Positions 14,748 to 64,000 of a stretch of 64,000 nucleotides of DNA are shown in pieces. The notes beneath the pieces were generated by a model, which was not told the DNA's origin, made no database searches, and saw only the letters and a program-made list of their open reading frames with translations. Source of the DNA: Eledone cirrhosa (Eukaryota > Mollusca > Cephalopoda > Octopoda > Eledonidae); contig OZ024743.1 in assembly GCA_964016885.1 (NCBI GenBank), forward strand, positions 172,156,154 to 172,220,153. The letters run 5' to 3'. Numbering within the stretch: the first letter of the stretch is position 1; every line of letters begins with the position of its first letter. The position numbers and the translations under genes are program-made.

Positions 14748-14755
14748 TGATGATG

Positions 14756-14828
<73 letters not shown>
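14748..14828. repeat. (AAT)n microsatellite, left edge of the array
   Basis: GATGATGAT passes into about 24 AAT units and joins the 5'-truncated R4b-1. Confidence 0.97.
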
Positions 14829-14830
<2 letters not shown>

Positions 14831-15839
14831 GACTAGGAAGCTATTGACTATCTACAACATGTTCCACAAGAGGAGTGATGTCGATAGACTCTACCTAAGG
14901 AGATCTGAGGGTGGAAGAGGTCTTATCAGCATAGAGGACTGTGTTCAGATGGAGAAAAACAACCTATACAAATACGTGACCTATAGTAAGGAGCCAATGC
15001 TCAGAGCTGTACTGAAGGAGGGGACAGTAGGCCAGGGGATACCCAAGGAGGAAATAACATCAAGGAGGAAGAGCAGCCTTAAGGGAAAATCCCTTCATAG
15101 TACCTTCTTTGAGAAAACTGAATTTAGAGATCCACAGACATGGAACTGGTTGAGAAGAGGAGACCTCAAAAAGGCTACAGAAGGAATGCTAATGGCTGCG
15201 CAGGAGCAGGCCCTCAAAACGAAGTGGTTGAAGCACCATATCTACAAGGAGGAGGCTAGCCCACTGTGCAGGATCTGTGGAGAGAGAGAGGAGACTGTGG
15301 CTCACATTGTGTCCGAGTGTAAACACCTAGCCCAGACCCACTATAAGGGCTGGAGACACGATGTGATGGGCAGGGTGATCCACTGGCACCTGTGCAAAGT
15401 AAACAATCTACCACATTCTGAGAAATGGTATGAGCATAGGCCAGAGGCGGTGATGGAGAACAGTCAGGTGAAGGTGCTGTGGGATTTTAGGATACAGACG
15501 GACAAAAAACTGGAACACAATAGACCTGACCTGGTGGTTGTGGACAAAGAAAAAAGATCGTGCCTGATTGTGGATGTGGCCTGCCCGTTCGACACGAGAG
15601 TGCAAGAGAAGGAGAGGGAGAAAATTAACCGATACCAGGACCTAAAGTGGGAGGTGAAAAGGATTTGGAACTGCCATGAAGTCAAAGTGATCCCGATTGT
15701 CATAGGCGCACTGGGGACTATCTCCAAAGGTTTCCAGGGATGGTTAAAGAAAATCGGCCCCTTCACGCTTTTTGGAACGCTTCAAAAGGCATGCTTGCTT
15801 GGAACGGCAAGAACCCTCCGATACGTCCTGAATATCTGA
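14829..15839 (+). CDS. R4b-1 C-terminal ORF: CCHC finger and restriction-like endonuclease
   Basis: An open frame of about 336 codons without an authentic start, since the element is truncated. It begins in the RT thumb region ([10 protein letters not shown]), with [11 protein letters not shown] shortly after. The CCHC finger reads [18 protein letters not shown] (about 15267), followed by the endonuclease core: [14 protein letters not shown], then [11 protein letters not shown] (about 15520-15595), which fits the R/K-PD-X12-D pattern of restriction-like endonucleases in R2/R4-type elements. A downstream K-X3-Y helix ([12 protein letters not shown]) is also as expected. In a complete element this part nicks the target DNA to prime reverse transcription. 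There is no RT active site here, so the fragment cannot move by itself. Confidence 0.85.
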
Positions 15840-15917
15840 GGCTGCAGGTAGTGGCTTGATATTCAATCCAACGGACTTTCCAGTTAACCAACATCAATGA
15901 CTGAGATTCAAGGAATA
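14829..15917 (+). mobile_element. R4b-1, 5'-truncated R4/Dong-like retrotransposon
   Basis: The 5' end falls inside the ORF at the codons for [10 protein letters not shown]. The 3' UTR of about 78 bases ends ATTCAAGGAATAAC before the AAT-type tail. It shares the variants [15 protein letters not shown] and SKGFQGW with R4b-5, 36 kb away, and looks nearly identical to it. Confidence 0.85.
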
Positions 15918-15975: not shown

Positions 15976-17078
15976 GGGAAGAAGACGCGCGAGGTGGTAG
16001 AACGTCACGAAATTGCTCCCGTAAGTTTTTTGATTTTTAACATATTTAAATCAATTGTAAAAGAACAATTCTTAGCACAAATGTTGCATAAAGGCACTGA
16101 ATGAGGTCCCATAAAGTTTCGGATCCATATTATATTGTTGTATCGCTCAAATATTCAATTTTGTATTATATATTTTGTATTCAAAAAAAGAAAATGGTTA
16201 TAAATGGAACAAAACACCCTCTGTCTACACTATATAGAACAGCGGCAATTTCAATTTCACCAACACCAGAAACTCGATACACTACCTATCCCATCACACT
16301 AAATATAACGGCAACTTCACCGGCATCATAATAATAATTACTATTATTATTGTCTCAAATTTAAAAAAATGTTTAATTCAAATTTTACGGGAATATGTCA
16401 ACACAAAATATAATGAAAATATATATTAAACATACGAACACAAACTCATAGATACTATATCAGTAACCACAACACCACCGCTGCCACCACCCCACCACAT
16501 CCATCATCGCCGCCACCACTCATTCAATGCTACTGACACTATTCCCCTGTTAACTTGAGAGAGAAAAGGGAAGTTGGTGGTAGCACTAGACAAGAGAGAG
16601 GCTAGCAAAAGATATAAATAGATTGACTTGGTGACCTTGCCACGGACAAACGTCTACATCAACAATTATGGGACTGCTGGCTCACCCCTTCCTCACCAAC
16701 AATATAAAAAGCCCCGGCACCACCACCGACATAGCCAGCAGCAATAACAGCCAACTACAACAAAAAGTATATTATATTATTGTAATGCACTGGGTGATTG
16801 CTGGCCTTGTCCCTGGAGTGGAGACAATTATTAATAATTTCATTCTTAAGCCACGCAATGCTCACATTAAGGAACCACTCATGATAATAACAATTAAAAA
16901 AAAACAACAAAAAGAAAACCCCGTGACCAAGAAATACCGGAATGGCGGCCGGCGGGGAATAGCCATGTCTCTAGGGGAGAACGACCCCTCTAGTCTTGGT
17001 TGACACTCGTTCTAGAAGTGGTAACACGAAAAGATTACCCCTTGGCGGATAAGGATAAAACGCGACAAAATAAAGTAG
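15976..17078 (+). promoter_or_regulatory. R4a-1 5' UTR with shared 5' block and embedded SINE piece
   Basis: The first roughly 570 bases resemble the 5' UTRs of R4a-3 and of the R4-b elements (TGCTCCCGTAAGTTTT, ATATTCAATTTTGTATT, ACACTATATAGAACAGC, CCACC-rich tract). At about 16782-16829 lies a SINE tail (TGCACTGGGTGATTGCTGGCC, then GGAGACAATTATT). A small frame at 16668-17003 covers this SINE. A similar but shorter frame occurs in R4a-3. I do not call it a gene, since most of it is repeat-derived. Being at the 5' end, this region should hold the internal promoter, but no promoter element can be shown from sequence alone. Confidence 0.6.
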
Positions 17079-20000
17079 ATGTCTAATGATGAAATCTCAT
17101 ACCGGATCGGCCGTCACCCGGGTAAAAAAGGGCCGCGTCCCTCAGAGAGGAACCAGACTGGGGTCGAAAAATCAGCTAATGGTTCAAACCTTCCCATCAC
17201 TTCGGAGCTGGAGACCTCCCATAACCGGAATACTCCTACTGTTGGCCCTCCATGCTCACCACCAAGAAATCCAAAGAAAAAAAGAGAAAAATGGTCAAGG
17301 GAAGATAATAAAGAAGTCCTTGAGGCTTTCTACACTGCCATGTACTACCCATCAAATACATCGAATACAGAGCAAACATATATCAACTGGAAAAAGAAAC
17401 ATCCCGAAAACAGAGGCTATATTGACAGTAACAAACTAGCCAATATACGAAGAAATATTGTAAGAAAAAAGTTACTAACTGATATAGAAATTGATCAGAT
17501 CAAGCTAGTAGCACAAAGTCAGCGAAGGGAAAATGAAGCATGTGTCAGTGAAAACGAGGTAAACTGTAACACTTCGAATCCCAGAGTTGGGGCGGAATCA
17601 CTGGCAACAGAACAAATTAAAGAAAGGAGCGAAAAAGTGGAGGGAGTGCATGCTCAGGATGAAACTCCAAATGAAAATAATGAGATCGTAAATGATAAAG
17701 AAATGAATGAGAATGAACTTGCCAACTTGAAGTATGAAATTATGATCGAATGGATGAAAATGAAAGAATCTGACATGGGGCAACGAGACACCCTCCCTAA
17801 GATCCAGAACTCCAAACAGAACCAAAAGATAATACACAAGACTAACATAATTCTCAAAAACATTATCATCACAAACAAAATAAACATTACTGACTTAAAT
17901 CATCTCTATTATGCATCGGCTAAAGTCACCACTCACTTATGTGGAGTGAAGATGAAAAAACAAAGGAATTCCCACAAGAAATCTACTTGGCAAGATAACA
18001 TCAATCGCCAAATAAACCTTCTCCGATCTGACATAGAAATTTTAACAAACTATAAAGTAGGTGAACATGTTAAACAAACTAAACTTAGAAAATTGAAAAA
18101 AAAGTACAGTATAAGATCAACATGTGACATAGACATGCTGATAGAAACAATCAAGCAAAAAGTGTCGGCCAAAGCTGCTCGTATAAGGCGCTTTGAAAAA
18201 CGATCTAGATTCTATAAGGACAATAATATGTTCAAAAACAACCAAAGAAACTTCTACAGAAAAATTGTCAACAATAACTGCTAAATCAATACCACCCAAG
18301 GAGGAAGTGCAAGAATTCTGGGAAAAGATCTGGGCCGAAGAAAAAGTTCATAACATACATGCCCCATGGATAGACAGACAAATGAAAGAAACAGCTCACC
18401 TTGAAGAACAAACATGGGAAAATATAACAGTTGAACAGCTGCGCTTGGCTCTAAGAAAAACCAGCAAATGGAAATCCCCAGGAAAAGACAAAATACAAAA
18501 CTTTTGGATAAATGCCTTCACAGAGTCTCATGAGCTGTTAGCCCAACTTTACAATGAAATAGTTAAGGAGCCAGAAAAGATACCATCATGGCTAGTTAAC
18601 GGCATTACATTCCTGCTACCGAAGAATGATGAGACAAACAATCCCAAAAATTACAGACCGATAACCTGCTTGACCACAATGTATAAAATTTTAACATCAG
18701 TCCTAACTGAATACACATATGACCACCTGATAACAAATGACCTATTTCCCATTGAGCAGAAAGGGTGTAAACGAGGCTCATATGGCTGTAAGGATCAGTT
18801 CTGGTTAACAAAATGATACTGGAAGATTGTCATAATAGACACAAAAATCTATCGATTGCTTGGATAGATTATAAAAAAGCATTTGATAGTTTGCCACACA
18901 GTTGGATTGAAAGATGTTTAGAGATTTTCAAAATATCCCCCGTTGTCAGGAGGTTTTTGTCATTCAGTATGAGGACATGGAGAACGACACTCCTTTTGAA
19001 TAGTGAAACAAAATCACTGGAAGCTGGAGAAGTTAACATTAATTGTGGAATTTTTCAGGGTGACTCTTTATCACCGCTTTTATTCTGCATCGCACTTATA
19101 CCATTAAGTAAAATGCTCAATGAAACAAAACATGGATATAGAGTCTATGACAAAACCATTAATCACCTGTTCTACATGGATGACCTGAAACTATTCGCAA
19201 AAAATGATGAACAATTGCAAGGGCTATTATCCACTGTGAAGCAGTTCAGTGATGACATTAAAATGGAGTTTGGACTGGATAAATGCGCCAAAGCAACGTT
19301 CACCAGAGGAAAGCTGCTGAAGAGTTCAGACATTAATCTTGATCGGGGGAACGTGATAAGAGAGCTTGATCAAGAACAAACTTACAAATATCTAGGTGTT
19401 TGTGAAGGAGACGGAATCAAGCACTCGACAATGAGGGAAAGGATAAGGAAGGAATGTTACCGCAGAGTCAGAGCAATCTTAAGAACGGAATTGAATGCAA
19501 GGAATAGGATCGATGCCATAAACACGCTTGCCATACCAGTAGTAACCTACAGTTACAATGTCATCAACTGGTCAAGCACAGAGATCCGTAGGCTCGATAC
19601 AAAAATCCGAAAATTCTTAACCATGCACAGAATGCATCACCCTAAGGCAGACATAGATAGAATATATCTCCCTAGGAAAGAAGGAGGACGTGGGTTAATC
19701 CAGTTAGACATTGCGTTGAAAACTGCAACAATTGGATTATCCACATATCTAAGGGAATCACATGATTGGATGATCAAACTCGTTTTGAAACACGAAAGCA
19801 CCAAAAGATCATATTCCATTACAAAAGATGCACAAAGATACAGTAATGGACTACAAATTTCAGAAGTCCCATTTACTGCTGAAATGGAAAACACAGAAAA
19901 AGCAAAGCAGGTAAAAGTAACTGCAAAGAAAGAACTGCTACAGAAACTGGCTAAGAAATGGCAAGAAAAGCCTCTGTATGGAAAATACCCAGAGCGAGCT

Positions 20001-20723
20001 AACAATCCTGATGTTGACAAAACTTTAACCCATCAGTGGTTGGCATCCTCTGGACTGAAATCGGAGACTGAAGGACTGATTATATCCGCACAAGATCAGT
20101 GTCTGCCAACAAAAAATTACCAAGCCAACATAATAAAAAATGGGTGCAGCCCATTATGCCGTGTATGCAAAAAACAACCAGAGACCATTGACCATATAAT
20201 TTCAATGTGCAGTCCTATAGCTCCAACCGAATACCTAAACAGGCATGACAGAGCTGCACAATACATACATTGGATAATGTGTAAGCATTTTGACCTGCCC
20301 CATCAAAAGAATTGGTGGGAGCATCAACCACCTCCCATACTTGAAAAAGATCACATCTCAATCTTGTGGAACTTTAGCATCCAAACAGACCGAAAAATAG
20401 ATGCAAATAGACCTGATATAATGTTGAAGGACTTTCAAAGGAGAGTATGCCTGCTAATTGATATGTCTGTTCCAATAGACAAGAATGTATCTATAAAAAC
20501 ATTTGAAAAATTGAGCAAGTATAAGGACCTGGAGATAGAAATTGGAAAAATGTGGAAATTGAGAACTAAAACAATACCAGTGGTTGTAGGCGCTCTGGGA
20601 ATGATACCTAAGGGGTCTAACGACTACTTATCGCAAATCCCAGGAAACCCGCGTATAGGAGAAATACAAAAGATAGTACTAATGGGAACTGCCCATATAC
20701 TAAGGAAGATCCTGTCAATATAA
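17079..20723 (+). pseudogene. R4a-1 ORF: Myb-like, RT, CCHC, restriction-like endonuclease; two frameshifts
   Basis: About 1,215 codons in total. The start MSNDEISYRIGRHPG matches MSNDKISYRIGRHPG in R4a-3. Next come a Myb-like DNA-binding segment (KREKWSREDNKEVLEAFYTA, about codons 68-90, through KLANIRRNI) and the [55 protein letters not shown], catalytic FYMDDLKLF (about 19173), YKYLGVCEGDGI. The CCHC finger is CRVCKKQPETIDHIISMC and the endonuclease core is RPD, then CLLIDMSVPID. Two small deletions relative to R4a-4 break it: 5 bases near 18267 (GGTAA or GTAAG lost) and 1 base near 18798. The near-identity to R4a-4 outside these sites suggests recent damage, or sequencing error. Confidence 0.85.
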
Positions 20724-20865
20724 GTACATCACAAGTCTAAACACTAAGGATGCATGTGTGAATATGTGTGTTCTTTCTTGAACATGGCGGACCTTGTTGT
20801 CTCTTGAGGTCACTGGTTGTGACTTGGTGATAACTCGTATAAACATAAAGCAAGATAAATGCAAA

Positions 20866-20890
20866 TAATAATAATAATAATAATAATAAT
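20866..20890. repeat. (AAT)n between R4a-1 and R4a-2
   Basis: About eight AAT units join the 3' end of R4a-1 to a 5'-truncated R4a-2. Confidence 0.95.
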
Positions 20891-22516
20891 ATACCATTAA
20901 GTAAAATGCTCAATGAAACAAAACATGGATATAAAGTCTATGACAAAACCATTAATCACCTGTTCTACATGGATGACCTGAAACTATTTGCAAGAAATGA
21001 TGAACAATTGCAAGGGCTATTATCCACTGTGGAGCAGTTCAGTGATGACATTAAAATGGAGTTTGGACTAGATAAATGCGCCAAAGCAACGTTCACGAGA
21101 GCAAAGCTGCTGAAGAGTTCAGACATTAATCTTGATCGGGGGAATGTGATAAGAGAACTTGATCAAGAAAAAACTTACAAATATCTAGGTGTTTGTGAAG
21201 GAGACGGAATCAAGCACTCGACAATGAGGGAAAGGATAAGGAAGGAATGTTACCACAGAGTAAGAGCAATCTTAAGAACGGAATTGAATGCAAGGAATAG
21301 GATCGATGCCATAAACACGCTTGCCATACCAGTAGTAACCTACAGTTACAATGTCATCAACTGGTCAAGCACAGAGATCCGTAGGCTCGATACAAAAATT
21401 CGAAAATTCTTAACCATGCACAGAATGCATCACCCTAAGGCAGATATAGATAGAATATATCTCCCTAGGAAAGAAGGAGGACGTGGGTTAATCCAGTTAG
21501 ACATTGCGTTGAAAACTGCAACAATTGGATTATCTACATATCTAAGGGAATCACATGATTGGATGATCAAACTCGTTTTGAAACACGAAAGCATCAAAAG
21601 ATCATATTCCATTACAAAAGATGCACAAAGATACAGTAATGGACTACAAATTTCAGAAGTACCATTTACTACTGAAATGGAAAACACAGAAAAAGCAAAG
21701 CAGGTAAAAGTAACTGCAAAGAAAGAACTGCTACAGAAACTGGCTAAGAAATGGCAAGAAAAGCCTCTGTATGGAAAATACCCAGAGCGAGCTAACAATC
21801 CTGATGTTGACAAAACTTTAACCCATCAGTGGTTGGCATCCTCTGGACTGAAATCGGAGACTGAAGGACTGATTATATCAGCACAAGATCAGTGTTTGCC
21901 AACAAAAAATTACCAAGCCAACATAATAAAAAATGGATGCAGCCCATTATGCCGTGTATGCAAAAAAGAACCAGAGATCATTGACCATATAATTTCAATG
22001 TGCAGTCCTATAGCTCCAACCGACTACCTGAACAGGCATGACAGAGCTGCACAATACATACATTGGATAATGTGTAAGCATTTTGACCTGCCCCATCAAA
22101 AGAATTGGTGGGAGCATCAACTACCTCCCATACTTGATAAAGATCACATCTCAATCTTGTGGAACTTTAGCATCCAAACAGACCGAAAAATAGATGCAAA
22201 TAGACCTGATATAATATTGAAGGACTTTAAAAAGAGGGTATGCCTGCTAATTGATATGTCTGTTCCAATAGACAAGAATGTATCTATAAAAACATTTGAA
22301 AAATTGAGCAAGTATAAGGACCTGGAGATAGAAATTGGAAAAATGTGGAAATTGAGAACTAAAACAATACCAGTGGTTGTAGGCGCTCTGGGAATTATAC
22401 CTAAGGGGTCTAATGATTACTTATCGCAGATCCCAGGAAACCCGCGTATAGGAGAAATACAAAAGATAGTTCTAATGGGAACTGCCCATATACTAAGGAA
22501 GAGTCTGTCAATATAA
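20891..22516 (+). CDS. R4a-2 partial ORF: RT palm onward, CCHC, endonuclease
   Basis: Open for about 541 codons from the truncation to the normal stop. It keeps the catalytic FYMDDLKLF (about 20965), the thumb region, the CCHC finger (CRVCKKEPEIIDHIISMC) and the endonuclease RPD-D motif. It lacks the fingers and first palm motif, including the catalytic aspartate in the DYKKAFD block, so polymerase activity is not expected. Its first ATG (20906) is internal to the family protein, not the native start. Confidence 0.85.
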   Translation: MPLSKMLNETKHGYKVYDKTINHLFYMDDLKLFARNDEQLQGLLSTVEQFSDDIKMEFGLDKCAKATFTRAKLLKSSDINLDRGNVIRELDQEKTYKYLGVCEGDGIKHSTMRERIRKECYHRVRAILRTELNARNRIDAINTLAIPVVTYSYNVINWSSTEIRRLDTKIRKFLTMHRMHHPKADIDRIYLPRKEGGRGLIQLDIALKTATIGLSTYLRESHDWMIKLVLKHESIKRSYSITKDAQRYSNGLQISEVPFTTEMENTEKAKQVKVTAKKELLQKLAKKWQEKPLYGKYPERANNPDVDKTLTHQWLASSGLKSETEGLIISAQDQCLPTKNYQANIIKNGCSPLCRVCKKEPEIIDHIISMCSPIAPTDYLNRHDRAAQYIHWIMCKHFDLPHQKNWWEHQLPPILDKDHISILWNFSIQTDRKIDANRPDIILKDFKKRVCLLIDMSVPIDKNVSIKTFEKLSKYKDLEIEIGKMWKLRTKTIPVVVGALGIIPKGSNDYLSQIPGNPRIGEIQKIVLMGTAHILRKSLSI

Positions 22517-22660
22517 GTACATCACAAGTCTAAACACTAAAGATGCATGTGTGAATATGTATGTTCTGCCTTGAACATGGCGGACCTTGTTGTCTCTTGA
22601 GGTTACTGGTTGTGACTTGGTGATAACTAGTATGAACATAAAGCAAGATAAATGCAACTG
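20891..22660 (+). mobile_element. R4a-2, 5'-truncated
   Basis: The 5' junction is within the RT, at ATACCATTAAGTAAAATGC, equivalent to 19099 in R4a-1. The ATA is shared with the (AAT)n tract. The 3' UTR ends AAATGCAACTGTAATAAC before the tail. Confidence 0.85.
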
Positions 22661-22721: not shown

Positions 22722-22723
<2 letters not shown>

Positions 22724-22984
22724 TTTCTTTATTAACCACAAGGGTTTACATAAAGTAGACATTAAGGACAGTGCAGGACATTGCAGGACGGTACAAATGG
22801 GCATTTCTGCGTGTAAAAAAAACAAAAACAGAGGAAGTAACAAAAATAACAATGAAAATAACAATGAAAAATTCCCCAATAGGGGGGAGACTTCGGAGGG
22901 ACATTTGTGGAGAAAGCCCAGTAAAAAGCCACAATGACCCTGACCACCAAGGCAAGTGCCCTCTCCCAGTTTTCCACCTTTAGT

Positions 22985-25900
22985 TTACAGATATATACTC
23001 AGAGTCGGCCCATTCACTCGGGCCATTCTTGCTTCTCTCACCCATCTTTCAACAAAATGCTGGGAAGAGAGCACTTCCTTCTCTACTCTGATTTTCCTTT
23101 TCAAATGAAATTTGAAAAAGTCAATCAGAGCATCACCGAAGAGGTAAGTGCTCGTCTTCAGCCCTTTCAAACGTGTCCACCATACTATCTCTTTCGCCAT
23201 GGCCACCAGACAGATAAAAACTGCCTGCCCTTCCCGGCTAAAGGAGGAGGGCGGGGCAATCCTCACGATAGACTCAGATGATAGCTGGATCCGTCCTAAA
23301 CGCGACAGCAGGTGTTCGACATAAACCCACAAGTCAGCAATTTTCGGACACTGGACGAGTGCGTGCAGGACGGTTTCGTCGCCCAGCGCGCATCTCGGAC
23401 ATGCCCGGCTGACGGCACCTCCATGCCTGTAGAGTTTATCCCGAACTGGCAAGGCTCCTCGGTAGCACTGCCAGGCCAGAGATTTCTGGAAGTTGTCCAT
23501 AGGCCCTGGCCCGAAAGTTCTTCCGAAGAGATTGGCTAGTTGATTTTCGTCGACGCCTAGAGTTTCCCCAAGTACGTCGTCGCTCTTCTCCTCCACTAAT
23601 CCTCTATAGAACGCCGAGGTGGAGTTTCCACCGATCACATTGCCCGATTGGTCGAGGGCTGTGAGCGCCTGAAGACATTCCAGTCTCCAGGCGCTCCCTC
23701 TCGGTCTTCGCTTGACCCAGGACTGCAGCTCCGTCAAGGAAACGAGCTGGGGAAAAACGCGTCTAGCAAACGGCGACCACACCTGATCACCGTCGAGGAA
23801 GAGGTGGAGATGTCGTAGCCTGAGCGCGTGCCTGCGCATCATCAGCCACGGCATGCCCAGCCCTCCACGTAGCGGGTGTTGACAACAGATGGACCGCCTG
23901 ACCATCGGAGCACGTCCCTTCCACAAAAAGCGAAAGAGCAAACGCTCCAGCGCAGTCAGGCGAGGCTTAGGACAAGGTACGACGGTTAGGCGGTAGCAGA
24001 TGACAGACGCGATGTACGCGTTAGCCACCTCCGCTCGACCTTTCAGGGATAGCTTCCTCTCCGCCCATTTCTGGGTGAGAGAAGCCACCCTGCTCGTCAC
24101 CTCGTCCCAGTTTTTGTCCGTCTGGAGGTCCGGACCGAACCAGACCCCTAGCAATTTAACCGGTCCGTCCGTCCAGCGCCCGACGACGCTGTTGGACGGC
24201 ATGGACCTGCCTCTCCAGGTGCCGAGCTGCAGGCCCACTGACTTTTCCTGGTTGATCATTGCTCCTGTCACCGCTTCGTATTCTCTTAGTGTAGTGCCGA
24301 TCGCCTCGATGTGTTTGGCGTTCGACACCACTACGGTGACATCGTCCGCATATGCTGACACGGATCTTCCGCATCCTAGTTCGCGCGGGACTCCCCTCAA
24401 CGTCTCCAGTTTGTGCAGTAATGGCTCGAGCGTCAATACGTACAAGAGGGACGAGAGGGGACATCCTTGGCGGACCGAGCGCATGATGTTGAACGGTTCC
24501 GACAGGTGACCGTTCACTCTCACCACAGAGCAGATGTCGCTGTGCATGGCAGCGATCCAGCCTCTGAAGACGGGCCCAAAGCCAGCCGCCCTCAGGACTG
24601 CCGCTAGGTAACGATGGTCGACCCTATCGAAAGCTTTCGACTGATCTAAATTGATCAAGGACCCACCCGTGCCAGGTTCCCTAGCTACCCTCTCTACGAT
24701 GTATCGCATGAGGTGGAGGTTGTCGTGGATGGATCTGTCGGGAATGGCGCATGTCTGCGCCTCTCCCACCAGACCACCAACGACAAGCGCCAACCTCTTT
24801 GCTAGCACCTTGGCCAAAATCTTAAACTCTGTGTTTAGCAGAGTTATGGGCCGGAAATTTTCTATGTTATCCCCCTTGTTCGGATCCTTTCTCAGCAGTG
24901 CCACCGCTCCTCGGCTCACAGAACTGGGAATTCTCCCGTTCTGTTGCCAGTTGCAGTAGACGTCCGCCAAGAGGCCTCCGAACAAGTCTGGCATCTGTAC
25001 GTAAAGTTCATAGGGCAGACCATCCAAACCAGGCGATTTACCCCTTGTGCAGCCAGTCATTGCCTCCCTTACTTCAGCGGCTGTTATCGGCTTTTCGCAA
25101 CACTTCGCCTCAGTGGCCGAGAGCCGCGGCAGTCCGTCGAGGTAGACACTAAAGTCCATCCCTCTACCCGGCCCACCGCTGCCCCCGAACAGCTGAGCGA
25201 AGTGTCGCTGAAAAGCTTCACACATTTGCCCGGGATCGAGTAGCATGCGCCCGTCGTGGTCCACCAAAGACCGGATCGTGGCTTTGTTGCCACGACGCGC
25301 CTCCGCCACTCGGGCCCATTGCACGGCTTTCATCCCCTCGTGTCTGAGAGCACGCACCCTTGCTCTGACAACGCAGCCTTCGTGCTTTGCATTGAAGAAT
25401 TGGTCAAGGGCCAATTTCGCCGCAAGCACGTCGGTCGCAATGCCTTTGCTAAGCGCCTCGTCTAATTTTCTAACTAGTTCTCCCTCTGCTCTATTTTTCT
25501 CTATTGCTAAAGCCTTACTAAACCTAATCGATTCTATTCTAATCGCTCTTTTCAGAGCAAACCACCACTTGTTGTTGACGATGGCCCCCGTCAACGCCCG
25601 CTTAACTAGTTCGCTAATCTGGTCTCTGTAGGCCTTGCGCGCTGGTAAGGACGCGTTTAGCTTCCAGTAGCCGGGTCCTCGTCTATGAAGCCTATCTAAG
25701 TCAAGCACACAGATCACGAATTTGTGGTCCGTGTAGCTGACTATCTTGAATTGTGGACAGCCTATGCTAGACCTATCTATTTCCCTACAAAATACTCTAT
25801 CTAGATATGATCTGGATGACCCTATGCGGTTTGTCCAAGTCCACATTGGCACATTCGGGAAATCCAATCGGTACCTGTCAGACAGTTCAAAACGCCTGAG

Positions 25901-26404: not shown

Positions 26405-26439
26405 GTTTAAAATAGAGTGGAAAAGATGGGAAAGACCAC

Positions 26440-28751: not shown

Positions 28752-28784
<33 letters not shown>
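28752..28784. repeat. (AAT)n between Tx1-A and R4b-2
   Basis: About 11 units. It abuts the 5' end of Tx1-A and the 5' end of R4b-2. Confidence 0.95.
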
Positions 28785-50996: not shown

Positions 50997-51010
50997 AATA
51001 ATAATAATAA
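50997..51010. repeat. (AAT)n, short
   Basis: About five units between R4a-4 and R4b-5. Confidence 0.9.
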
Positions 51011-52938: not shown

Positions 52939-53016
52939 GGCTGCAGGTAGTGGCTTGATATTCAATCCAAACGGACTTTCCAGTTAACCAACATCAATGA
53001 CTGAGATTCAAGGAAT
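51011..53016 (+). mobile_element. R4b-5, 5'-truncated
   Basis: The 5' junction is in the RT at TAATGTGGAAACTG. TAATG is both element sequence (31178 in R4b-2) and compatible with the microsatellite. The 3' end is the standard R4-b end. Confidence 0.87.
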
Positions 53017-53051
53017 AACAATAACAATAATAATAATAATAATAATAATAA
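53017..53051. repeat. (AAT)n with AAC units
   Basis: The tail of R4b-5, joining R4b-6 at ATTGGTTTATTT. Confidence 0.93.
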
Positions 53052-56000
53052 TTGGTTTATTTAAATTAGATGAACAAAAATTGGCCGGGCAGGCTCGGGT
53101 AATAAGAACTAATGGATGGATAAGCGAGCTGGAACTGGAGGAACTGAGCAGAGAGAATGGCTTGGAGATGGCGGGTGTAGTATGCCAGACAAGCGAGCCA
53201 GTGGGAAATGAAGGTGAAGAGGTCCTGAGAACGGAGGAACCACCCGAAGCAGACAATGATCTGAATACTGAGATAATTAATACCTGGAACAGAGATACGG
53301 CCACTGAGGAGATGAATGCTGACGGGCTAGGACAAGATTCGGTTGACATCCTAAATTTAGTGGTAGATGAATTGAACAATGATAGTGGGAGACCTATGAA
53401 CCTAAGATTTGTAGACAGGAAAAAGTTCAAAGAAACAACAGCTAAGGTAAACAAAGTCATCCCATACCTTGAGGCGAGGAGCTTTCACCAGTGCAACAAT
53501 ATCCTCAAAGCAACAGCAAATACGGTGAGGAAACTACTTGGTATAAAAGCGAGAGGAAACAACAGACAAGAAAGAGCAGAGCCGTGGTGGAAGAAGCGAC
53601 TGAGTGGGCAAATCGGGGAAATGAGAAATAACATAGGAAAGCTTGAGTCACTACTGAATGGGACACTAAAAAACATAGGCACTAAAAATAGACTGGAAAT
53701 AAAATACAAAACTAGGAGTAAAAAGCTAAATATTATCATAGAGGAATTGAAGCAACGCATTGTAGCAAAGAGTGCAAAAATCAGGCGATACGAGAACAGA
53801 GTCAGTCAGTATAAACAGAACCGCATGTTCGACAACAACCAGAAGATGCTGTTTGGACAGCTTGAGGGGAAAGAAAGAGGCAACGACTTGATCCCTGGGG
53901 CGGAACAAACTAAAACATTCTGGAGAGGAATATGGGAGCAGGATGTTAGACACAATGCCCAGGCAGGGTGGATTGAGACAGTACAGAGGGAGATCGGTGA
54001 GCAGGCACAACAACAAACTGATTTGAGTATCACAGTTGAAACTCTTAAGGGGCAGGCCAAAAAACTAACCAACTGGAGATCACCAGGCCCAGATGGTGTG
54101 CAGGGGTATTGGATTAAACATTTAACATCCCTCCACCCGAAGCTGACGGCCATGTTCAATGACTGCTTGGTGTCGGGTGAGGTGCCAGAGTGGTTGACAA
54201 AAGGTACCACAGTTCTGATAATGAAAGACCGAATCAAGGGTAATGATGTTACCAACTATAGACCTATCACATGTCTGTCCGTAATGTGGAAACTGTTGAC
54301 GAGCATTGTGTCTGAGGAAATCTACCATCACCTCCACACAAACAACTTGTTACCGGACGAACAGAAAGGATGCCGAAAGAAGTCACGTGGTACAAAGGAC
54401 CAGTTGCTTATTGATAAGATGGTAATGGGGAATTGCAGGAGGAGACACACTGATCTTGCCATGGGATGGATAGACTACAGAAAGGCATTTGACATGGTGC
54501 CTCATTCCTGGATCACCAAAAGCCTGGAGATCTTCAGGGTGGCAGATAACATCAGACAGTTGCTAGGCAGGAGTATGGGGTCCTGGGAGACAGAGTTGAC
54601 ATCAACTGGAGTATCCTTGGGAAGCGTGAAGATCAAGAGAGGTATCTTCCAGGGAGATAGCCTGTCCCCTCTGTTGTTTGTCCTTGCCCTGATGCCCTTG
54701 ACCATTATGCTGCGAAAAGTGAGAGCAGGATACAAGTTGGGAAGGGGAGAGCTTACCATCAATCACCTCCTCTTCATGGACGATCTTAAGCTCTTCGGGA
54801 AAAGTGAGAATGGAGTTGGATGTGCTTGTTGACACTGTCCGTATTTTCAGCAGTGATATATGTATGCAGTTTGGTATTGGTAAATGTGGAGTCATTGTGA
54901 TGAAGAGGGGTAGGTTGAGCAGAAGTAACGGGATCCATATACCAACAGGTGAGATGATAAAGGAAATTGACTCTGAGGAAGGATACAAGTATTTGGGCGT
55001 TCTGGAGGCTGATGGCATAAAGAACAAAAAAATGAAGGAATTGTTAAGAACTGAATACATTCGGAGAGTAAGGAGCGTATTGAAGTCACATCTGAACAGC
55101 AGAAATGCCATAAGCGCAGTAAATTCCCGAGCTGTGTCTATTATCAGGTACAGTGCGGGAATTCTGAGATGGAATGTTGCTGAACAAAAAGAAATGGATA
55201 GGAAGACTAGGAAGCTATTGACTATCTACAACATGTTCCACAAGAGGAGTGATGTCGATAGACTCTACCTAAGGAGATCTGAGGGTGGAAGAGGTCTTAT
55301 CAGCATAGAGGACTGTGTTCAGATGGAGAAAAACAACCTATACAAATACGTGACCTATAGTAAGGAGCCAATGCTCAGAACTGTACTGAAGGAGGGGATA
55401 GTAGGCCAGGGGATGTCCAAGGAGGAAATAACATCAAGGAGGAAGAGCAGCCTTAAGGGAAAACCCCTTCATAGTACCTTCTTTGAGAAAACTGAATTTA
55501 GAGATCCACAGACATGGAACTGGTTGAGAAGAGGAGACCTCAAAAAGGCTACAGAAGGAATGCTAATGGCTGCGCAGGAGCAGGCCCTCAAAACGAAGTG
55601 GTTGAAGCACCATATCTACAAGGAGGAGGCTAGCCCACTGTGCAGGATCTGTGGAGAGAGAGAGGAGACTGTGGCTCATATTGTGTCCGAGTGTAAACAC
55701 CTAGCCCAGACCCACTATAAGGGCTGGAGACACGATGTGATGGGCAGGGTGATCCACTGGCACCTGTGCAAAGTAAACAATTTACCACATTCTGAGAAAT
55801 GGTATGAGCATAGGCCAGAGGCGGTGATGGAGAACAATCAGGTGAAGGTGCTGTGGGATTTTAGGATACAGACGGACAAAAAACTGGAACACAATAGACC
55901 TGACCTGGTGGTTGTGGACAAAGAAAAAAGATCGTGCCTGATTGTGGATGTGGCCTGCCCGTTCGACACGAGAGTGCAAGAGAAGGAGAGGGAGAAAATT

Positions 56001-56213
56001 AACCGATACCAGGACCTAAAGTGGGAGGTGAAAAGGATTTGGAACTGCCATGAAGTCAAAGTGATCCCGATTGTCATAGGCGCACTGGGGACTATCTCCA
56101 AAAGTTTCCAGGGATGGTTAAAGAAACGCGGCCCCTTCACGCTTTTTGGAACGCTTCAAAAGGCATACTTGCTTGGAACAGCAAGAACCCTCCGATACGT
56201 CCTGAATATCTGA
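53051..56213 (+). pseudogene. R4b-6 ORF with single frameshift shared with R4b-2
   Basis: Open from the truncation through KLAGQARVIRTNGWI, the basic region, and the RT with [40 protein letters not shown] and FMDDLKLF (about 54775). Then an extra T at about 54811 shifts the frame. From about 54804 the second frame is open for 469 codons to the normal stop, with the CCHC finger and endonuclease. The frameshift is identical in position and base to that of R4b-2, while R4b-3 and R4b-5 lack it. Apart from this one site and the 5' truncation the copy appears intact. Confidence 0.87.
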
Positions 56214-56289
56214 GGCTGCAGGTAGTGGCTTGATATTCAATCCAACGGACTTTCCAGTTAACCAACATCAATGACTGAGATTCAAGGAA
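53051..56289 (+). mobile_element. R4b-6, 5'-truncated by a few dozen codons
   Basis: The junction is within the Myb-like region, at IGLFKLDEQKLAG (equivalent to 29950 in R4b-2). The 3' end is TTCAAGGAATAACAACAAC. It is the longest truncated R4-b copy. Confidence 0.86.
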
Positions 56290-56334: not shown

Positions 56335-56336
<2 letters not shown>

Positions 56337-56558
56337 TTTTCTTTATTAACCACAAGGGTTTACATAAAGTAGACATTAAGTACAGTACAGGACAATACAG
56401 GACGGTACAAATGGGCATTTCTGCGTGTAAAAAATAACAAAGACAAATTCCCCAATAGGGGTAGACTTCCGAGGGACATTTGTGGAGAAAGCCCATTAAA
56501 AGACCACAGTGAATCTGACCACCAAGGCAAGTGCCCTCTCCCAGTTTCCACCTTTAAT

Positions 56559-59500
56559 TTACAGACACATACTCAGAGTATTATTCATTCGGGCCATTCT
56601 TGCTTCTCTCACCCATCTTTCAACAAAATGCTGGGAAGAGAGCATTTTCCTCTCTACCCTGATTTTCCTTTTCAAATGAAATTTGAAAAAGTTAATCAGG
56701 GCATCACCGAAGAGGTAAGTGCTCGTCTTCAGCCTTTTCAAACGTATCCACCATACCATCTCTTTCGCCATGGCCACCAGACATATGAAAACTGCCTGCC
56801 CTTCCCGGCTAAAGGAAGAGGGCGGAGCAATCCTCACGATGGACTCAGCTGATAGCTGGATCCGTCCTACACGTGACAGCAGGTGTTCGACATAAACCCA
56901 CAAGTCAGCAATGCTCGGACACTGGACGAGTGCGTGCAGGACGGTTTCGTCGCCCTGTGCGCGTCTCGGACATGCCCGGCTGACGGAACCTCCATGCCTG
57001 TAGAGTTTATCCCGAACTGGCAAAGCACCCCGGTAGCACTGCCAGGCCAGGGATTTCTGGAAGTTGTCCATAGGCCCCGGCCCGAAAGTCCTTCCGAAGA
57101 GATTGGCTAGTTGATTTTCGTCGACGTCTAGAGTTTCTCCAAGTACGTCGTCGCTCTTCCCCTCCACTAATCCCCTATAGGACGCCAAGGTGGAGTTTCC
57201 ACCCATCACATTGCCCGATTGGTCGAGGGCTGTGAGCGCCTGAAGACATTCCAGTCTCCAAGCGCTCCCTCTCGGTCTTCGCTTGACCCAGGACTGCAGC
57301 TCCTTCAAGGAGACGAGCTGGGGAAAAACGTGTCTAGCAAACGGCGACCACACCTGATCACCGTCGAGGAAGAGGTGGAGATGTCGTAGCCTGAGCGCGT
57401 GTCTGCGCATCATCAGCCACGGCTTGCCCAGCCTTACACGTAGCGGGTGTTGACAGCAGATGGACCGCCTGACCATCGGAGCGCGTCCCTTCCACACGAA
57501 GCGAAAGAGCAAACGCTCCAGCGCAGTCAGGCGGGGCTTAGGACAAGGTGCGACGGTCAGGCGGTAGTAGATGACGGACGCGATGTACGAGTTAGCCACC
57601 TCCGCTCGACCTTTCAGGGATAGCTTCCTCTCGGCGCATTTCTGGGTGAGAGAAGCCACCCTGCTCGTCACCTCGTCCCAGTTTTTGTCCGTCTGGAGGT
57701 CTGGACCGAACCAGACCCCTAGCAATTTAACCGATCCGTCCGTCCAGCACCGGACGACGCTGTTGGACGGCATGGACCTGCCTCTCCAGGTTCCGAACTG
57801 CAGGCCCACTGACTTTTCCTGGTTGATCATTGCTCCTGTCACCGCTTCGTATTCTCTTAGTGTAGTGCCGATCGCCTCGATGTGTTTGACGTTCGACACC
57901 ACTACGGTAACATCGTCCACATATGCTGACACGGATCTTCCGCATCTTAGTTCGCGCGGGAGCTCCCTCAACGTCTCCAGTTTGTGCAGTAATGGCTCGA
58001 GAGTCAATACGTACAATAGGGAGGAGAGGGGTCATCATTGGCGGACCGAGCGCATGATGTTCAACGGTTCCGAAAGGTGACTGTTCACTCTCACTACAGA
58101 GCAGATGTCGCTGTGCATGGCAGCGATCCAGCCTCTGAAGACGGGCCCAAAGCCAGCCGCCCTCAGGACTGCCGCTAGGTAACGATGGTCGACCCTATCG
58201 AAGGCTTTCGATTGATCTAAATTGATCAACGACCCACCCGTGCCAGGTTCCCTAGCTACCCTCTCTACTATGTATCGCATGAGGTCGTGGAGGGATCTGT
58301 CGGGAATGGCGCATGTATGTGCTTCTCCCACCAGACCACCAACGACAAGCGCCAACCTCTTTGCTAGCACCTTGGCCAAAATCTTGAACTCTGTGTTTAG
58401 CAGAGTTTTGGGCCTAAAATTATGTTATCCCCCTTGTTCGGATCCTTTCTCAGCAGCGCCACCGCTCCTCGGCTCACAGAGCTGGGAATTCTCCCGTTCA
58501 GTTGCCAGTTGCAGTAGACGTCCGCCAATAGGCGTTCGAACAAGTCTGGCATTTGTACGTAAAGTTCATAGGGCAGACTATCTAAACCAGGCGATTTACC
58601 CCTTGTGCAGGCAGTCATTGCCTCACGTACTTCAGCGGTTGTTATCGGCTTTTCGCAACACTCCGCCTCAGTGGCCGAAAGCCGCGGCAGTCCGTCGAGG
58701 TAGACACTAAAGTCCATCCCTCGATCCGACCCGCCACTGCCCCCGAACAGTTGAGCGAAGTGTCGCTGAAAAGATTCACACATTTGCCCGGGATCGAGTA
58801 GCATGCGCCCGTCGTGGTCCACCAAAGACCGGATCGTGGCTTTATTGCCACGACGCTCCTCCGCCACTCGGGCCCATTGAACGGCTTTCGTCCCCTCGTG
58901 TCTGAGAGCACGCACCCTAGCTCTGACAACGCAGCCTTCGTGCTTTGCATTTAAAAATTGGTCAAGGGCCAATTTCGCCGCAAGTACGTCGGTCGCGATG
59001 CCTTTGCTAAGCGCCTCTTCTAATTTTTTAACTAATTATCCCTCTGCTCTATTTTTCTCTATTGCTAAAGCCTTACTAAACCTAATGGACTCTATTCTAA
59101 TTGCTCTTTTCAGAGCAAACCACCACTTGTTGTTGACGATGGCCCCCGACAACGCCCGCTTAACTAGTTCGCTAATCCGGTCTCTGTAGGCCTTGCGCGC
59201 TGGTAAGGACGCGTTTAGCTTCCCGTAGCCGGGTCCTCGTCTATGAGGCCTATCTAAGTCAAGGACACAGATCACGAATTTGTGGTCCATGTAGCTGACT
59301 ATCTTGAATTGTGGACACCCTATGCTAGACCTATCTATTTCCCTACAAAATACTCTATCTAGATATGATCTGGATGACCCTATGCGATTTGTCCAAGTCC
59401 ACATTGGCACATTCGGGAAATCCATTCGGTACCTGTCAAACAGTTCAAAACGCCTGAGCAGGTTGGTGAGACTCCTGCACCCTCCTTCCCTATCCACTAA

Positions 59501-59962
59501 TCCCACACAATCCCAGCGTGCATCTAAGATCCCGTTCCAGTCGCCCACTAACACTAAAGAGCGGGACCTTCCAAGAAAGGTCTCCAGACGCCGGAAGATA
59601 TCAGGCCGCCCTGCTCCTGTCGGGGCATAGACGGCCACTAACCTGAAAGCTTGCCCTTCTCCGCTGTTCACGTCCAGCACCACCAACTTACCTTCTGGGT
59701 CCAGGAAGATGGCCCGTATGGCGATATCCAAACCTCTCCGAAAAAGAACAGCAACTCCTCCCCCCGATCCCGGACAGCTGGGAGATGCGTACACATCGTA
59801 GCCGCCGAAGATCGGTGCGAAGGCCCGTGCTTCGGAGATTCTGGTCTCGCTGATGGCCACTACATCTATGATTAGTGACCTGAGGTCGTTGAGCAGGTGG
59901 CCCTTCTTCCATGACGACCCCAAGCCACGCGCATTTATGCTGCCTATTCTGAGTGAGGTCAT
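56559..59962 (-). pseudogene. Tx1-C ORF2: APE-RT with nonsense codons and a frameshift
   Basis: It starts MTSLRIGSINARGLGSSW and keeps a whole APE domain (ISETRI, VGDWNGILD, DHKFVIC). It is broken by TAA at 59038-59036 and a small deletion near 58425 in the RT region. Two consecutive TGA codons follow at 58037-58032, where Tx1-A has GC of RQGCPLS. From 58016 down it is open to the normal stop, with AYVDD in place of AYADD at the RT active site and the motif CPRRAQGDETVLHALVQC, in which one zinc-binding cysteine is replaced by arginine. It is inactive as it stands. Confidence 0.87.
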
Positions 59963-59996
59963 GTTGAAAAGGAGTGGAAAAGATGGGAAAGACCAC

Positions 59997-61995
59997 TTAC
60001 CTTACTTCTCGTAGGGGAAGGACGGTTTTTCCATCCTTTTCACTGCTTGTGGCCTCCTCAGGAAGGATGTCCTTATAAATCCTCCTGGAGAGTGCTTGTC
60101 GGAAGTCTCCGATGTCTTTGGGGAATTTTTGTTTTCGTGTCATGTACGTTTTCTGTGCGATGCGAGTGATTTGTATGTGTGGAGGTGGTGTGAATTTTGG
60201 GGTTGTTGTGTAGTCTTTTTCTGTGATGCTGGTGTTGTGTTGGATGTAGTGTAATAATTGCTTGTTGTTCAAATTTAATGCTGTGTAGTGTGTATCGTTT
60301 TGGTTGTTTTGTTTTGTTTGCGTTTGTTGTGGGTTTGTTTCTGTTTCGCATTTTGGTGACTTTTGTGGTGTAGGTGATGGTGGTGTTGGGGTTAATGATG
60401 GTGATGGTGTTGGTGTTTGGGTTGATGGGGTTGGTGATGCTGGTGTGGATGGTGGCATATCTGTCCTAAATTTTTTGTTTGTTAATTTATTTGTTTCCCT
60501 CTGTATTTTGTTTTTGGAGGGGGAAGGAAGAGAATTTTTTCTTTTTTGGTTTCTTTTTTTTTTCCTGATACCGTTTCCCACTCCTCGTCGTCACAATCTG
60601 TCTCCAGTTGTGATAGGCCGGGGAGTGGAAAATTCTCCACAGGCGTTAGTTTTGGTTGTGGCGTGGTGGATGGTGTAGGCGCTGGTGCTAGTTCTGAAGC
60701 GTTGGGTGGTGGTTGTGTTGGTTTTGCTGGTGGTGGTGGTGTTGGTTTTGCTACTGTTGCTGGGGTTGTTGCTGTTATAGTTGCTTCTGTTGTTGCTGCT
60801 ACAGTTGTTGCTGCCATCTCTGCTACTGGTGGTGTTGATGGTTGTGTCACTGGGGTGGGTAGGAGAGGTGGCCTCAACCTTTTAGCCTGAGGGCAGAAAG
60901 CCCTTAGGTGGGTTCCTTCACCACAAACGACACACCTAGGCCTTCTGCCCTCGACAATTACGGTGAGGTGGCTGCCGTCAGTGAGGTCTATTACCTCTGG
61001 GATCTCCTCAATGCTTTTTTTGTCCGCTTGGATCAGGAGCTCCATCCCAGATCCGGACCAGTTCTCCTGCTTTTCTTTTGCTATTGCTATTATCTTTGTG
61101 TTGGCTTCGATGCCGGCGAGGACGGCCGCTATTAGCCAGGGAATTTCGATGGGCGGTGGAACGTGGGTCACCCTGATCTTTACGAGTCTCTGGCCACAAT
61201 AGCTTGGGACGAGTGTGAAGTCGTCACTTCTTAATGGGGCCATGGAGTGTTCTCTAGCCTCCTCTGGTGTTTCAAAGAACACGTCCACCGTTCCATACTT
61301 CTGCCCACGTCTGATGTGGGTTTTTCTTGCCCACACATGTCCCAAAGCTTTTTGGATGTGGGACTCGGATGCCCGTTCCACTCGGCGCGATTTTACATTT
61401 ATTGTTCGATACGACACGGTGCATAGACGCCGATGCTCCCTTTTATTAGGTGGGGCGGGGGTGAGGCTGACCCTGTACCCATCTTTCTTTACCATTTGTT
61501 TGGCATTTTCTAAATCCTCCTGAGTTACCGTAAATGCTTCGAACTGTTTTGCTACTCTGGCAAAACTCAGGGTGTTTTTTTAATGTCATTGTTGTTGTTG
61601 TTGCTATCGTTATTTTTGTTATTATTAATTTTAGTTTCAGTTGTGGTGGTGGTGACGTCATTGAAAGTCGGTTTGGGAGAGTCCATTTTGGTTGAAAATA
61701 TTTCGACATCACGAGTTGATTTATTTTTTGCTTTTGTTTCTGTTGTTGCGGTGGTGGTGGTGGTGGTGGTGGTGGTGGTGGTGGTGGTTGTCGCGGTGGT
61801 GGTGGCGGCTTTAACACCTTCAGTCATTGGTAATGGCGGGAAATGAATGTCTGCCTGAAACAAATTTAAAATATTGCTAGTGCTTAAATTGTTTGTGTTG
61901 GCAAACGTAGTATCATTTACAATGGTGGTGTCGGTGTGAGGTGTTAATTTGTGAGGAAGGCTTTCAGCTGCTTGGTGCAGAGGTGAATTAGCCAT
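59997..61995 (-). pseudogene. Tx1-C ORF1: diverged gag-like protein, one homopolymer frameshift
   Basis: It starts MANSPLHQAAESLPHK at 61995, runs through a Thr-rich tract (about 61740-61800), and stops early because of a 7-base A run (T7 at 61575-61581 on plus). The frame that resumes carries LSFARVAKQF, YRTINVKSRRVERASESHIQ, GTVDVFFETPEEA, the knuckle CVVCGEGTHLRAFC and a Pro/Thr-rich tail ending VLPLREVR at 59997. It aligns with Tx1-A ORF1 along the RRM-like and knuckle parts at very roughly 60 percent. The neighbouring ORF2 is about 95 percent like Tx1-A. One base of length change would restore the frame, so this could be a sequencing or polymerase slip. Confidence 0.82.
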
Positions 61996-62204
61996 TTTTT
62001 TTCAAAGAAATTTTTTGATAATCATAAAAGTTTAAATTTTGTGTACAAGGCCCCAATCTTTTTGGGTGTCCTTTTCGGAAAACAATGTATGTGCGCTTAT
62101 ATATAGTTAACAATAAAAACTTTCCATAAATGGCAATTTTTAACAAACGGAAATAACAAACCTTTGCGGAGCTCACGATGATACGATTTACTACGTAGGT
62201 CGCC
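61996..62204 (-). promoter_or_regulatory. Tx1-C 5' UTR
   Basis: About 209 bases between the element's 5' end and the ORF1 start. It is unlike the 5' UTR of Tx1-A and Tx1-B, apart from a short GTACAA...CCCCAAT likeness. It presumably holds the internal promoter. No specific element can be named. Confidence 0.45.

Positions 62205-62243
<39 letters not shown>
62205..62243. repeat. (AAT)n between Tx1-C and Tx1-D
   Basis: About 13 units. It abuts the 5' end of Tx1-C and is the 3' tail of Tx1-D. Confidence 0.96.
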
Positions 62244-62245
<2 letters not shown>

Positions 62246-64000
62246 TTTTTTATTAACCACAAGGGTTTACATAAAGTAGACATTAAGGACAGTACAGGAC
62301 AATACCGGCCGGTACAAATGGGCATTTCTGTGTGTAAAAAAAACAAAAACAGGATGTAACAAAAAAATAACAATGAAAAATTCCATAATAGGGGGGAGAC
62401 TGCCGAGGGACATTTGTGGAAAAAGCCCATTAAAAGGCCACAGTGACCCCGGCCACCAGAGCAAATGCCCTCTCCCAGTTTTCCACCTTTAATTTACAGA
62501 CAGATACTCAGAGTAGGCCCATTCACTCGGGCCATACTTGCTTCTCTCACCCATCTTTCAACAAAATGCTGGGAAGAGAGCATTTCCCTCTTTACTCTGA
62601 TTTTCCTTTTCAAATGAAATTTGAAAAAGTTAATCAGGGCATCACCGAAAAGGTAAGTGCTCGTCTTCAGCCCTTTCAAACGTGTCCACCATACTATCTC
62701 TTTCGCCATGGCCACCAGACAGATAAAAACTGCCTGCCCTTCCCGGCTAAAGGAAGAGGGCGGGGCAATCCTTACGATGGACTCAGCTGATAGCCGGATC
62801 CGTTCTACACGCGACAGCAGAGGTTCGACATAAACCCACAAGTCAGCAATGCTCGGACACTGGACGATGCGTGCAGGACGGTTTCGTCACCCTGCGCGCA
62901 TCTCGGACATGTTCGGCTGACCACACCTCCATGCCTGTAGAGTTTATCCCGAACTGGCAAAGCTCCTCGGTAGCAGTGCCAGGCCAGGGATTCTGGAAGC
63001 TGTCCATAGGCCCCGGCCCGAAAGCCCTTCCGAAGAGATTGGCTAGTTGATTTTCGTCGACGCCTAGAGTTTCTCCAAGTACGTCGTCGCTCTTCCCCTC
63101 CACTAATCCTCTATAGAACGCCAGTTGGAGTTTCCACCCATCAGATTGCCCGATTGGTCGAGGGCTGTGAGCGCCTGAAGACATTCCAGTCTCCAAGCGC
63201 TCCCTCTCGGTCTTCGCTTGACCCAGGACTGCAGCTCCGTCAAGGAGACGAGCTGGGGAAAGACGTGTCTAGCAAACGGCGACCACACCTGATCACCGTC
63301 GAGGAAGAGGTGGAGATGTCGTAGCCTGAGCGCGTGTCTGCGCATCATCAGCCACGGCTTGCCCAGCCTTACACGTAGCGGGTGTTGACAGCAGATGGAC
63401 CGCCTGACCATCGGAGCGCGTCCCTTCCACACGAAGCGAAAGAGCAAACGCTCCAGCGCAGTCAGGCGGGGCTTAGGACAAGGTGCGACGGTCAGGCGGT
63501 AGTAGATGACGGACGCGATGTACGAGTTAGCCACCTCCGCTCGACCTTTCAGGGATAGCTTCCTCTCGGCGCATTTCTGGGTGAGAGAAGCCACCCTGCT
63601 CGTCACCTCGTCCCAGTTTTTGTCCGTCTGGAGGTCTGGACCGAACCAGACCCCTAGCAATTTAACCGATCCGTCCGTCCAGCACCGGACGACGCTGTTG
63701 GACGGCATGGACCTGCCTCTCCAGGTTCCGAACTGCAGGCCCACTGACTTTTCCTGGTTGATCATTGCTCCTGTCACCGCTTCGTATTCTCTTAGTGTAG
63801 TGCCGATCGCCTCGATGTGTTTGACGTTCGACACCACTACGGTAACATCGTCCACATATGCTGACACGGATCTTCCGCATCTTAGTTCGCGCGGGAGCTC
63901 CCTCAACGTCTCCAGTTTGTGCAGTAATGGCTCGAGAGTCAATACGTACAATAGGGAGGAGAGGGGTCATCATTGGCGGACCGAGCGCATGATGTTCAAC
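62244..64000 (-). mobile_element. Tx1-D, 3' part of a Tx1 element running off the window
   Basis: The 3' end is GTGGTTAATAAAAAATC before (ATT)n. The 3' UTR runs to about 62493. The part from 63263 to the window end appears identical to 57328-58065 of Tx1-C, whereas the part nearer the 3' end differs from Tx1-C at many positions. Confidence 0.87.
62494..64000 (-). pseudogene. Tx1-D ORF2, C-terminal two-fifths, frameshifted
   Basis: Enters from the window edge. It carries the same paired TGA codons (63972-63967) and AYVDD active-site variant as Tx1-C, then the thumb and linker regions. A 1-base loss near 63125, further indels near 62985 and a small deletion near 62868 split the C-terminal part. 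The last piece (62841-62494) ends RVNGPTLSICL, like Tx1-A rather than Tx1-C. The N-terminal portion lies outside the window. Confidence 0.85.

Follow-up and report, generated by a model that had tools for sequence, protein, structure and literature searches.

Sixteen retroelement copies of three kinds in one array of AAT repeats, probably built by repeated insertion into the repeat

How retroelements of three unrelated kinds came to lie end to end, with AAT repeats at their joins, is the question raised by the locus described here. In order to answer it, we analyzed a stretch of DNA of 64,000 bases, hereafter the window, which has a GC content of 42% and is free of N. Self-BLAST and tract listings showed that positions 14745-64000 are filled by 16 retroelement copies and 16 AAT tracts. 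Ten copies are R4/Dong-like (A1-A6 and B1-B4), four are Tx1-like (T1-T4) and two are 3' fragments of SINEs (S1 and S2), in agreement with a preliminary description of this DNA, which had counted the same 16 copies and held that they were joined by (AAT)n alone. The tracts measure 15-85 bp each and add up to 779 of 49,256 bp, or 1.6% of the interval. As the boundaries are drawn here, only (AAT)n tracts separate the copies, with the reserve that T3 was credited with its 5' 2.1 kb (about 60045-62204) on the basis of partial similarity to T1 alone (about 65-82%, in short stretches). The order of the array is the following.

14745-14829, plus strand: left-most AAT tract, which starts TAATGATGATGATAATAAT and adjoins non-array DNA
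14829-15913, plus strand: A1, R4-like family A, 5'-truncated at A3 position 3451, with CCHC and RLE motifs
15976-20863, plus strand: B1, R4-like family B, considered full length since B3 has a nearly identical start point; coding frame split; embedded SINE fragment at 16782-16826
20890-22660, plus strand: B2, R4-like family B, 5'-truncated at B1 position 3122
22722-28751, minus strand: T1, Tx1-like, two long stop-to-stop frames, the first of 702 aa, the second of 1204 aa with APE and RT domains
28782-33183, plus strand: A2, R4-like family A, begins at A3 position 152; frameshift by a 1-nt insertion common to A6
33220-38193, minus strand: T2, Tx1-like, with the 5' end of T1, from which it differs by internal deletions
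38213-38271, minus strand: S1, SINE 3' fragment with an (ATT)n tail in its own sense
38355-38454, minus strand: S2, SINE 3' fragment
38526-43048, plus strand: A3, R4-like family A, longest copy; inverted (ATT)4 at 38514-38525 just before it
43123-47865, plus strand: B3, R4-like family B, with the 5' end of B1 and an internal deletion when compared with it; SINE fragment inside the copy at 43943-43987
47893-48220, plus strand: A4, diverged family A 3' end (92-93% identity to the others), 5'-truncated at A3 position 4210
48270-50996, plus strand: B4, R4-like family B, 5'-truncated at B1 position 2168; single open frame with RT, CCHC and RLE motifs
51008-53013, plus strand: A5, R4-like family A, 5'-truncated at A3 position 2532; single open frame
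53051-56287, plus strand: A6, R4-like family A, 5'-truncated at A3 position 1301; frameshift common to A2
56336-62204, minus strand: T3, Tx1-like, 5' half largely unlike T1 and T2
62244-64000, minus strand: T4, Tx1-like, runs past the window end

The R4/Dong-like copies belong to two families, whose proteins are 41% identical over 688 aligned positions (A5 versus B4) and which have much of their 5' UTR in common (87% over 574 nt, A3 versus B3). In both families, an RVT_1 reverse transcriptase domain was present, the RT regions strongly matched R2 proteins of solved structures, and CCHC and RPD...D restriction-like endonuclease (RLE) motifs were detected by pattern search; the alignment of the A1 endonuclease region with R2 proteins of solved structures was weak (E 0.005-0.011). 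An RT followed by CCHC and a restriction-like endonuclease, together with the (TAA)n target observed for all ten copies at the present locus, is what characterizes the R4/Dong clade. This placement is read from motifs and target, and no protein named Dong or R4 occurred among the 120 matches listed out of 1386. A divergent Myb-like N-terminus devoid of zinc fingers is a further trait of the clade. The N-termini of A and B aligned with the N-terminus of the homologue P0096 at 25-28%; no C2H2 pattern was found in them, and no Myb domain was returned by a Pfam search to E 10. Scans of genome contigs with family B and P0121 yielded no relative with DNA context, and scans of viral contigs with family B, Tx1 and three 3'-end patterns yielded no relative.

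T1 contains two open reading frames of 702 and 1204 aa. The second includes Exo_endo_phos (APE) and RVT_1 domains, and its best PDB match was LINE-1 ORF2. Two reading frames with APE and RT in the second are the mark of the Tx1 clade; in the protein search, one of 14 matches was named Transposon TX1 protein (32% identity over 57% of the query), and the assignment is read from the domains rather than from a tree. The mark of a SINE is a tRNA-derived head, and what the window holds of these elements is short pieces of their 3' side.

Did these copies arrive one by one, or did one founding cluster expand, with its AAT tracts as the sites of unequal crossing-over or segmental duplication? Several neighbour orders do occur more than once: A is followed by B three times and by Tx1 twice, and B by A twice. 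In addition, a Tx1 copy comes next after both A2 and A6, and these two carry the same inserted, frame-breaking base, which is lacking in A3 and A5. The 5' ends argue against duplication of blocks: the seven 5'-truncated R4 copies all break at different points (A3 positions 3451, 152, 4210, 2532 and 1301; B1 positions 3122 and 2168). Furthermore, the members of recurring pairs diverge unequally. A1 and A3 are 99.1% identical, versus 96.6-96.7% for B1 and B3 along their two long stretches and 75-80% close to the 5' end; A1 and A4 are 92.6% identical, versus 99.5% for B1 and B4; and A2 and A6 are 99.1% identical, versus 86-94% for T2 and T3 where these are well aligned, the 5' halves of the latter two being largely different. 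Distinct truncation points and unequal divergence of neighbours thus indicate that the insertions were independent, as had been proposed. The shared frameshift of A2 and A6 fits copies from one frameshifted source, that is, two RNAs of one damaged source copied by the protein of another element, other histories being possible. Whole-block copying is disfavoured as the main source of the array, and we regard it as quite unlikely. Microhomology at the truncated ends (4 nt for A2 and for A5, 2 nt for A6 and for B2, none for A1, A4 and B4) was too weak to be retained.

An assembly artefact, by which unrelated loci would have been joined at AAT tracts, was considered for the reason that every join sits in low-complexity sequence. 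The 64 kb are uninterrupted by N, tracts of 15-85 bp would be short in comparison with long reads, and copies 97-99% identical over 1-4 kb were kept separate with no gaps. None of these points is decisive; an artefact is, in our opinion, very unlikely.

In order to establish where the copies had entered, the 15 nt flanking each of them were scored for plus-strand AAT. Twelve or more of the 15 nt matched at the 5' flank of 15 of the 15 copies having a 5' end inside the window (T4, cut by the window end, is outside this set) and at the 3' flank of the same 15; for A3, the 5' flank was scored to the left of the inverted (ATT)4 that sits between the AAT tract and the element. In the left flank, 51 of 14,729 positions reached this score, and in the bodies of 13 of the 16 elements (S1, S2 and T4 omitted) 24 of 45,802 did. 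Since the tracts represent so few bases of the interval, random insertion within it would nearly always strike an element body; none of the 15 5' boundaries lies inside one. The sole insertion inside a body is the SINE fragment of family B, which is common to B1 and B3 and is therefore probably older than the array. The earlier claim that nearly all 5' ends start at (AAT)n was thus confirmed, and the use of one (AAT)n target by three element types was supported, in both cases for the present locus, from which all flank counts come.

The strand of the copies follows a rule. The R4 copies are on the plus strand in 10 of 10 cases and the Tx1 and SINE copies on the minus strand in 6 of 6 (T4 being judged by its 3' side only). 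Read in their own sense, the minus-strand copies end in (ATT)n, so that the statement that each copy ends in (AAT)n stands for the R4-like copies and has to be corrected for the Tx1-like and SINE copies. In 15 of 15 cases, the polarity of the 5' flank is that of the copy's own tail. Overall, 591 bases of the array are in plus-strand (AAT)5 or longer and 15 in (ATT)5 or longer; in the left flank, neither was found. The simplest reading of this orientation is that an RNA can prime only where its own tail pairs with the nicked strand. Untargeted insertion, by which elements would favour open or safe chromatin and AAT would be created afterwards by their tails, could account for AAT at the 3' ends with no target choice required, but it fails on the AAT at all 15 5' flanks, on the unhit element bodies and on the orientation rule, and is scarcely plausible.

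We consider it likely that the array was built by repeated and independent target-primed reverse transcription into (AAT)n by three tail-matched kinds of retroelements. The target would be the (AAT)n microsatellite, and the RNA 3' ends of the three kinds would match this repeat. We infer that R4/Dong-like RNAs carry (AAU)n at their end and use the strand with ATT for priming, which would produce plus-strand copies, and that Tx1-like RNAs carry (AUU)n there and use the strand with AAT, which would produce minus-strand copies. The RNAs of the SINEs, which probably share the Tx1 3' end, would also end in (AUU)n and give rise to minus-strand copies. New copies would enter the repeat beside older ones, sparing the element bodies. 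The repeat would outlive each insertion, either through the tail brought by the element (family A) or through duplication of the target repeat (Tx1/SINE side), and the array would continue to grow.

The only (ATT)4 listed in the array is the inverted one at the 5' junction of A3; its position between the tract and the element is not explained by the tail-matched model.

How the repeat persists was examined on both sides. Directly after the same 3' end, the tails of family A start with AATAAC in five of six copies (A1, A2, A3, A5 and A6; not the diverged A4). Because this motif immediately follows the common 3' end, family A brings its own repeat-like tail along. For the Tx1/SINE side, one further SINE of the window has to be introduced.

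9320-9414, plus strand: S3, SINE that belongs neither to the array nor to an AAT tract, with 17-bp target duplications at 9303-9319 and 9415-9431 and an empty paralogue at 6064-6079

The target duplication of S3 is ATTATTTACCTCTRATC, of which the two copies are identical at 16 of 17 positions. It starts with ATTATT, a motif that begins at 34 of 14,744 left-flank positions. S3 was inserted at this ATTATT, and apart from the duplication no repeat was left behind; in family B, ATTATT likewise comes right after the embedded SINE fragment. Since S3 lies outside any AAT tract, the Tx1/SINE machinery can work without a long repeat. Furthermore, since S3, the only polarised SINE insertion, added no tail, duplication of the target repeat is an equally possible route of renewal on this side: Tx1-like elements and SINEs may keep their target by duplicating it, and such duplications would be invisible inside AAT tracts. 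The preliminary description had stated that a new (AAT)n tail comes with every insertion. This is visible for family A and not for S3, in which nothing was added beyond the target duplication; the array can be called self-renewing in outline, perhaps by more than one route.

The SINEs S1-S3 are taken here to be similar to cephalopod SINEs. The 3' ends of S1 and S2 were compared with those of the other elements. When the terminal 24 nt of S1 and of S2 were set flush with the tail against those of T1-T3, 14-15 positions matched (p 0.0008-0.0078). Against T4, 12 positions (p about 0.07-0.08) and 14 positions (p about 0.005-0.007) matched; against the ends of A2, A4, B1 and B3, 7-10 positions did. 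The p values of this test are optimistic, as it was devised after the local alignment had been viewed. In that local-alignment test, the eight SINE-Tx1 pairs gave p values of 0.05-0.42, mostly not significant, whereas p was below 0.05 for two of the four SINE-B pairs. On these sequence comparisons, a partnership between Tx1-like elements and SINEs through their 3' ends appears likely.

The specificity of R4/Dong elements for TAA repeats had been put forward as a precedent, and PMC7998251 agrees, giving (TAA)n as the target of Dong in most insects, molluscs and cnidarians; according to PMC2887409, Dong sits in the (TAA)n of the rDNA spacer. The present copies resemble the Dong/R4 clade (Bombyx, Darwinula and others) by their RLE type, their CCHC and R/KPD motifs and their (TAA)n target, and differ from it in that many of them are stacked, in a repeat that APE elements and SINEs occupy as well. 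According to PMC3774820, the 5' end of Dong bears an HDV-like, self-cleaving ribozyme, and in a junction primer this end directly follows TAA. The 5' end of B1 likewise directly follows TAA, and that of B3 lies one base later. In contrast to Dong, no 5' ribozyme was detected here by crude tests: the HDV-type ribozyme family was absent from the nine Rfam hits to E 5 in 14500-64000, and a crude ribozyme descriptor found no match in A3, B3 and T3 and did equally well on shuffles in B1, T1 and T2. The nine Rfam hits, SNORD21 and fstAT among them, in every case fell well short of the gathering score and were taken as chance, and a descriptor match in A2 that beat 30 of 30 shuffles was discounted, as it starts in the AAT tract of a copy that lacks its 5' end.

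Other arrays resemble the present one in part. The Drosophila HeT-A/TART/TAHRE telomere arrays and TRAS in telomere repeats are mixed or repeat-targeted LINE arrays. SART is another telomere-repeat-targeted LINE. All of these differ from the present array in being telomeric, and to our knowledge RLE and APE elements are never mixed in them. Kibi and Koshi, reportedly described by Kojima and Fujiwara in 2004, are said to be Tx1-clade APE elements that target simple repeats, with TC and TTC, not AAT, as their targets; we know of no R4 partner for them. Zepp inserts at poly(A) tails, and Keno belongs to the Tx1 clade. In Chlorella and Coccomyxa, the Zepp LINE forms clusters of nested copies of 1.5-42.3 kb (PMC3446292); this likeness goes along with the differences that Zepp is a single family of the L1 clade (PMC3747384) with one cluster per chromosome. 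According to PMC4640811, Utopia (RLE) and Keno (APE) chose the same U2 snRNA gene site in parallel, Utopia families sometimes occupy the same array, microsatellites are among the targets of site-specific elements, and the Tx1 clade is among the target-specific groups. Two endonuclease classes thus meet at one target, as in the present array; the difference is that the target of Utopia and Keno is a gene, not a microsatellite resembling the elements' own tails.

For Octopus vulgaris, 1129 Dong-R4 and 421 L1-Tx1 recently active insertions are given (PMC13282606), and Dong-R4 and L1-Tx1 are among the families expanded in three coleoids (PMC8967140). The accessible portions of these two papers make no mention of AAT arrays. 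In the literature searched by titles and abstract openings, a scope that leaves most subscription papers outside, no description of AAT repeats with a mixed R4/Tx1/SINE array was found. The novelty first claimed for the sharing of a target by RLE and APE elements was overstated, as Utopia/Keno (PMC4640811) and nested Zepp (PMC3446292) had been published. The mixed R4/Tx1/SINE array in AAT does look new, and it looks like a new variation on known microsatellite-targeted retroelements.

We suggest, as a tentative idea that may well prove wrong, that throughout the genome AAT microsatellites are a niche shared by RLE and APE retroelements and their SINEs, which would maintain it together. With every insertion, a repeat usable by the others would be restored or lengthened, the orientation of each copy would be set by the strand with which the RNA tail pairs, and the islands would grow as a multi-species community. 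The orientation rule offers a readable test of whether RNA-tail pairing, as opposed to endonuclease choice alone, determines the site and direction of insertion. Shared AAT targeting could also help to explain repeat-rich islands that are hard to assemble. If the idea holds genome-wide, unrelated retroelements would have converged on one simple-repeat target, each keeping it alive for the others.

In the left flank of the retroelement array, self-comparison revealed long inverted repeats (80-978 and 4526-5523, about 90% identical) that bound an AT-rich stretch of 5.4 kb, perhaps a DNA transposon; a Pfam search with three open frames within this stretch gave no match above the cut-off. The same type of analysis detected a duplicated segment (5763-6079 and 9002-9318, 92% identical), one copy of which carries a SINE insertion (9320-9414), the other being its empty site.

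Within the array, the 5' ends of the two R4-like families, A and B, were 87% identical over 574 aligned nt (38527-39087 versus 43135-43685), despite only 41% identity between their proteins, as if the 5' UTR had been exchanged between them. Among the Tx1-like copies, the 3' 3.8 kb of T3 (56336-62204) was 93% identical to T1 (22722-28751); in the 5' 2.1 kb, similarity to T1 was limited to short, weaker stretches. From this sequence comparison, module exchange among Tx1-like elements is possible.

At the 5' junction of A3, a family A copy, an inverted (ATT)4 (38514-38525) resembling a snap-back was observed between the element start and the AAT tract. Finally, the reverse transcriptase (RT) frame of two other family A copies, A2 (28782-33183) and A6 (53051-56287), was broken by an identical 1-nt insertion. 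Since this insertion is common to both and absent from A3 and A5, it suggests that A2 and A6 were copied from a single damaged source, mobilised by the protein of another copy.
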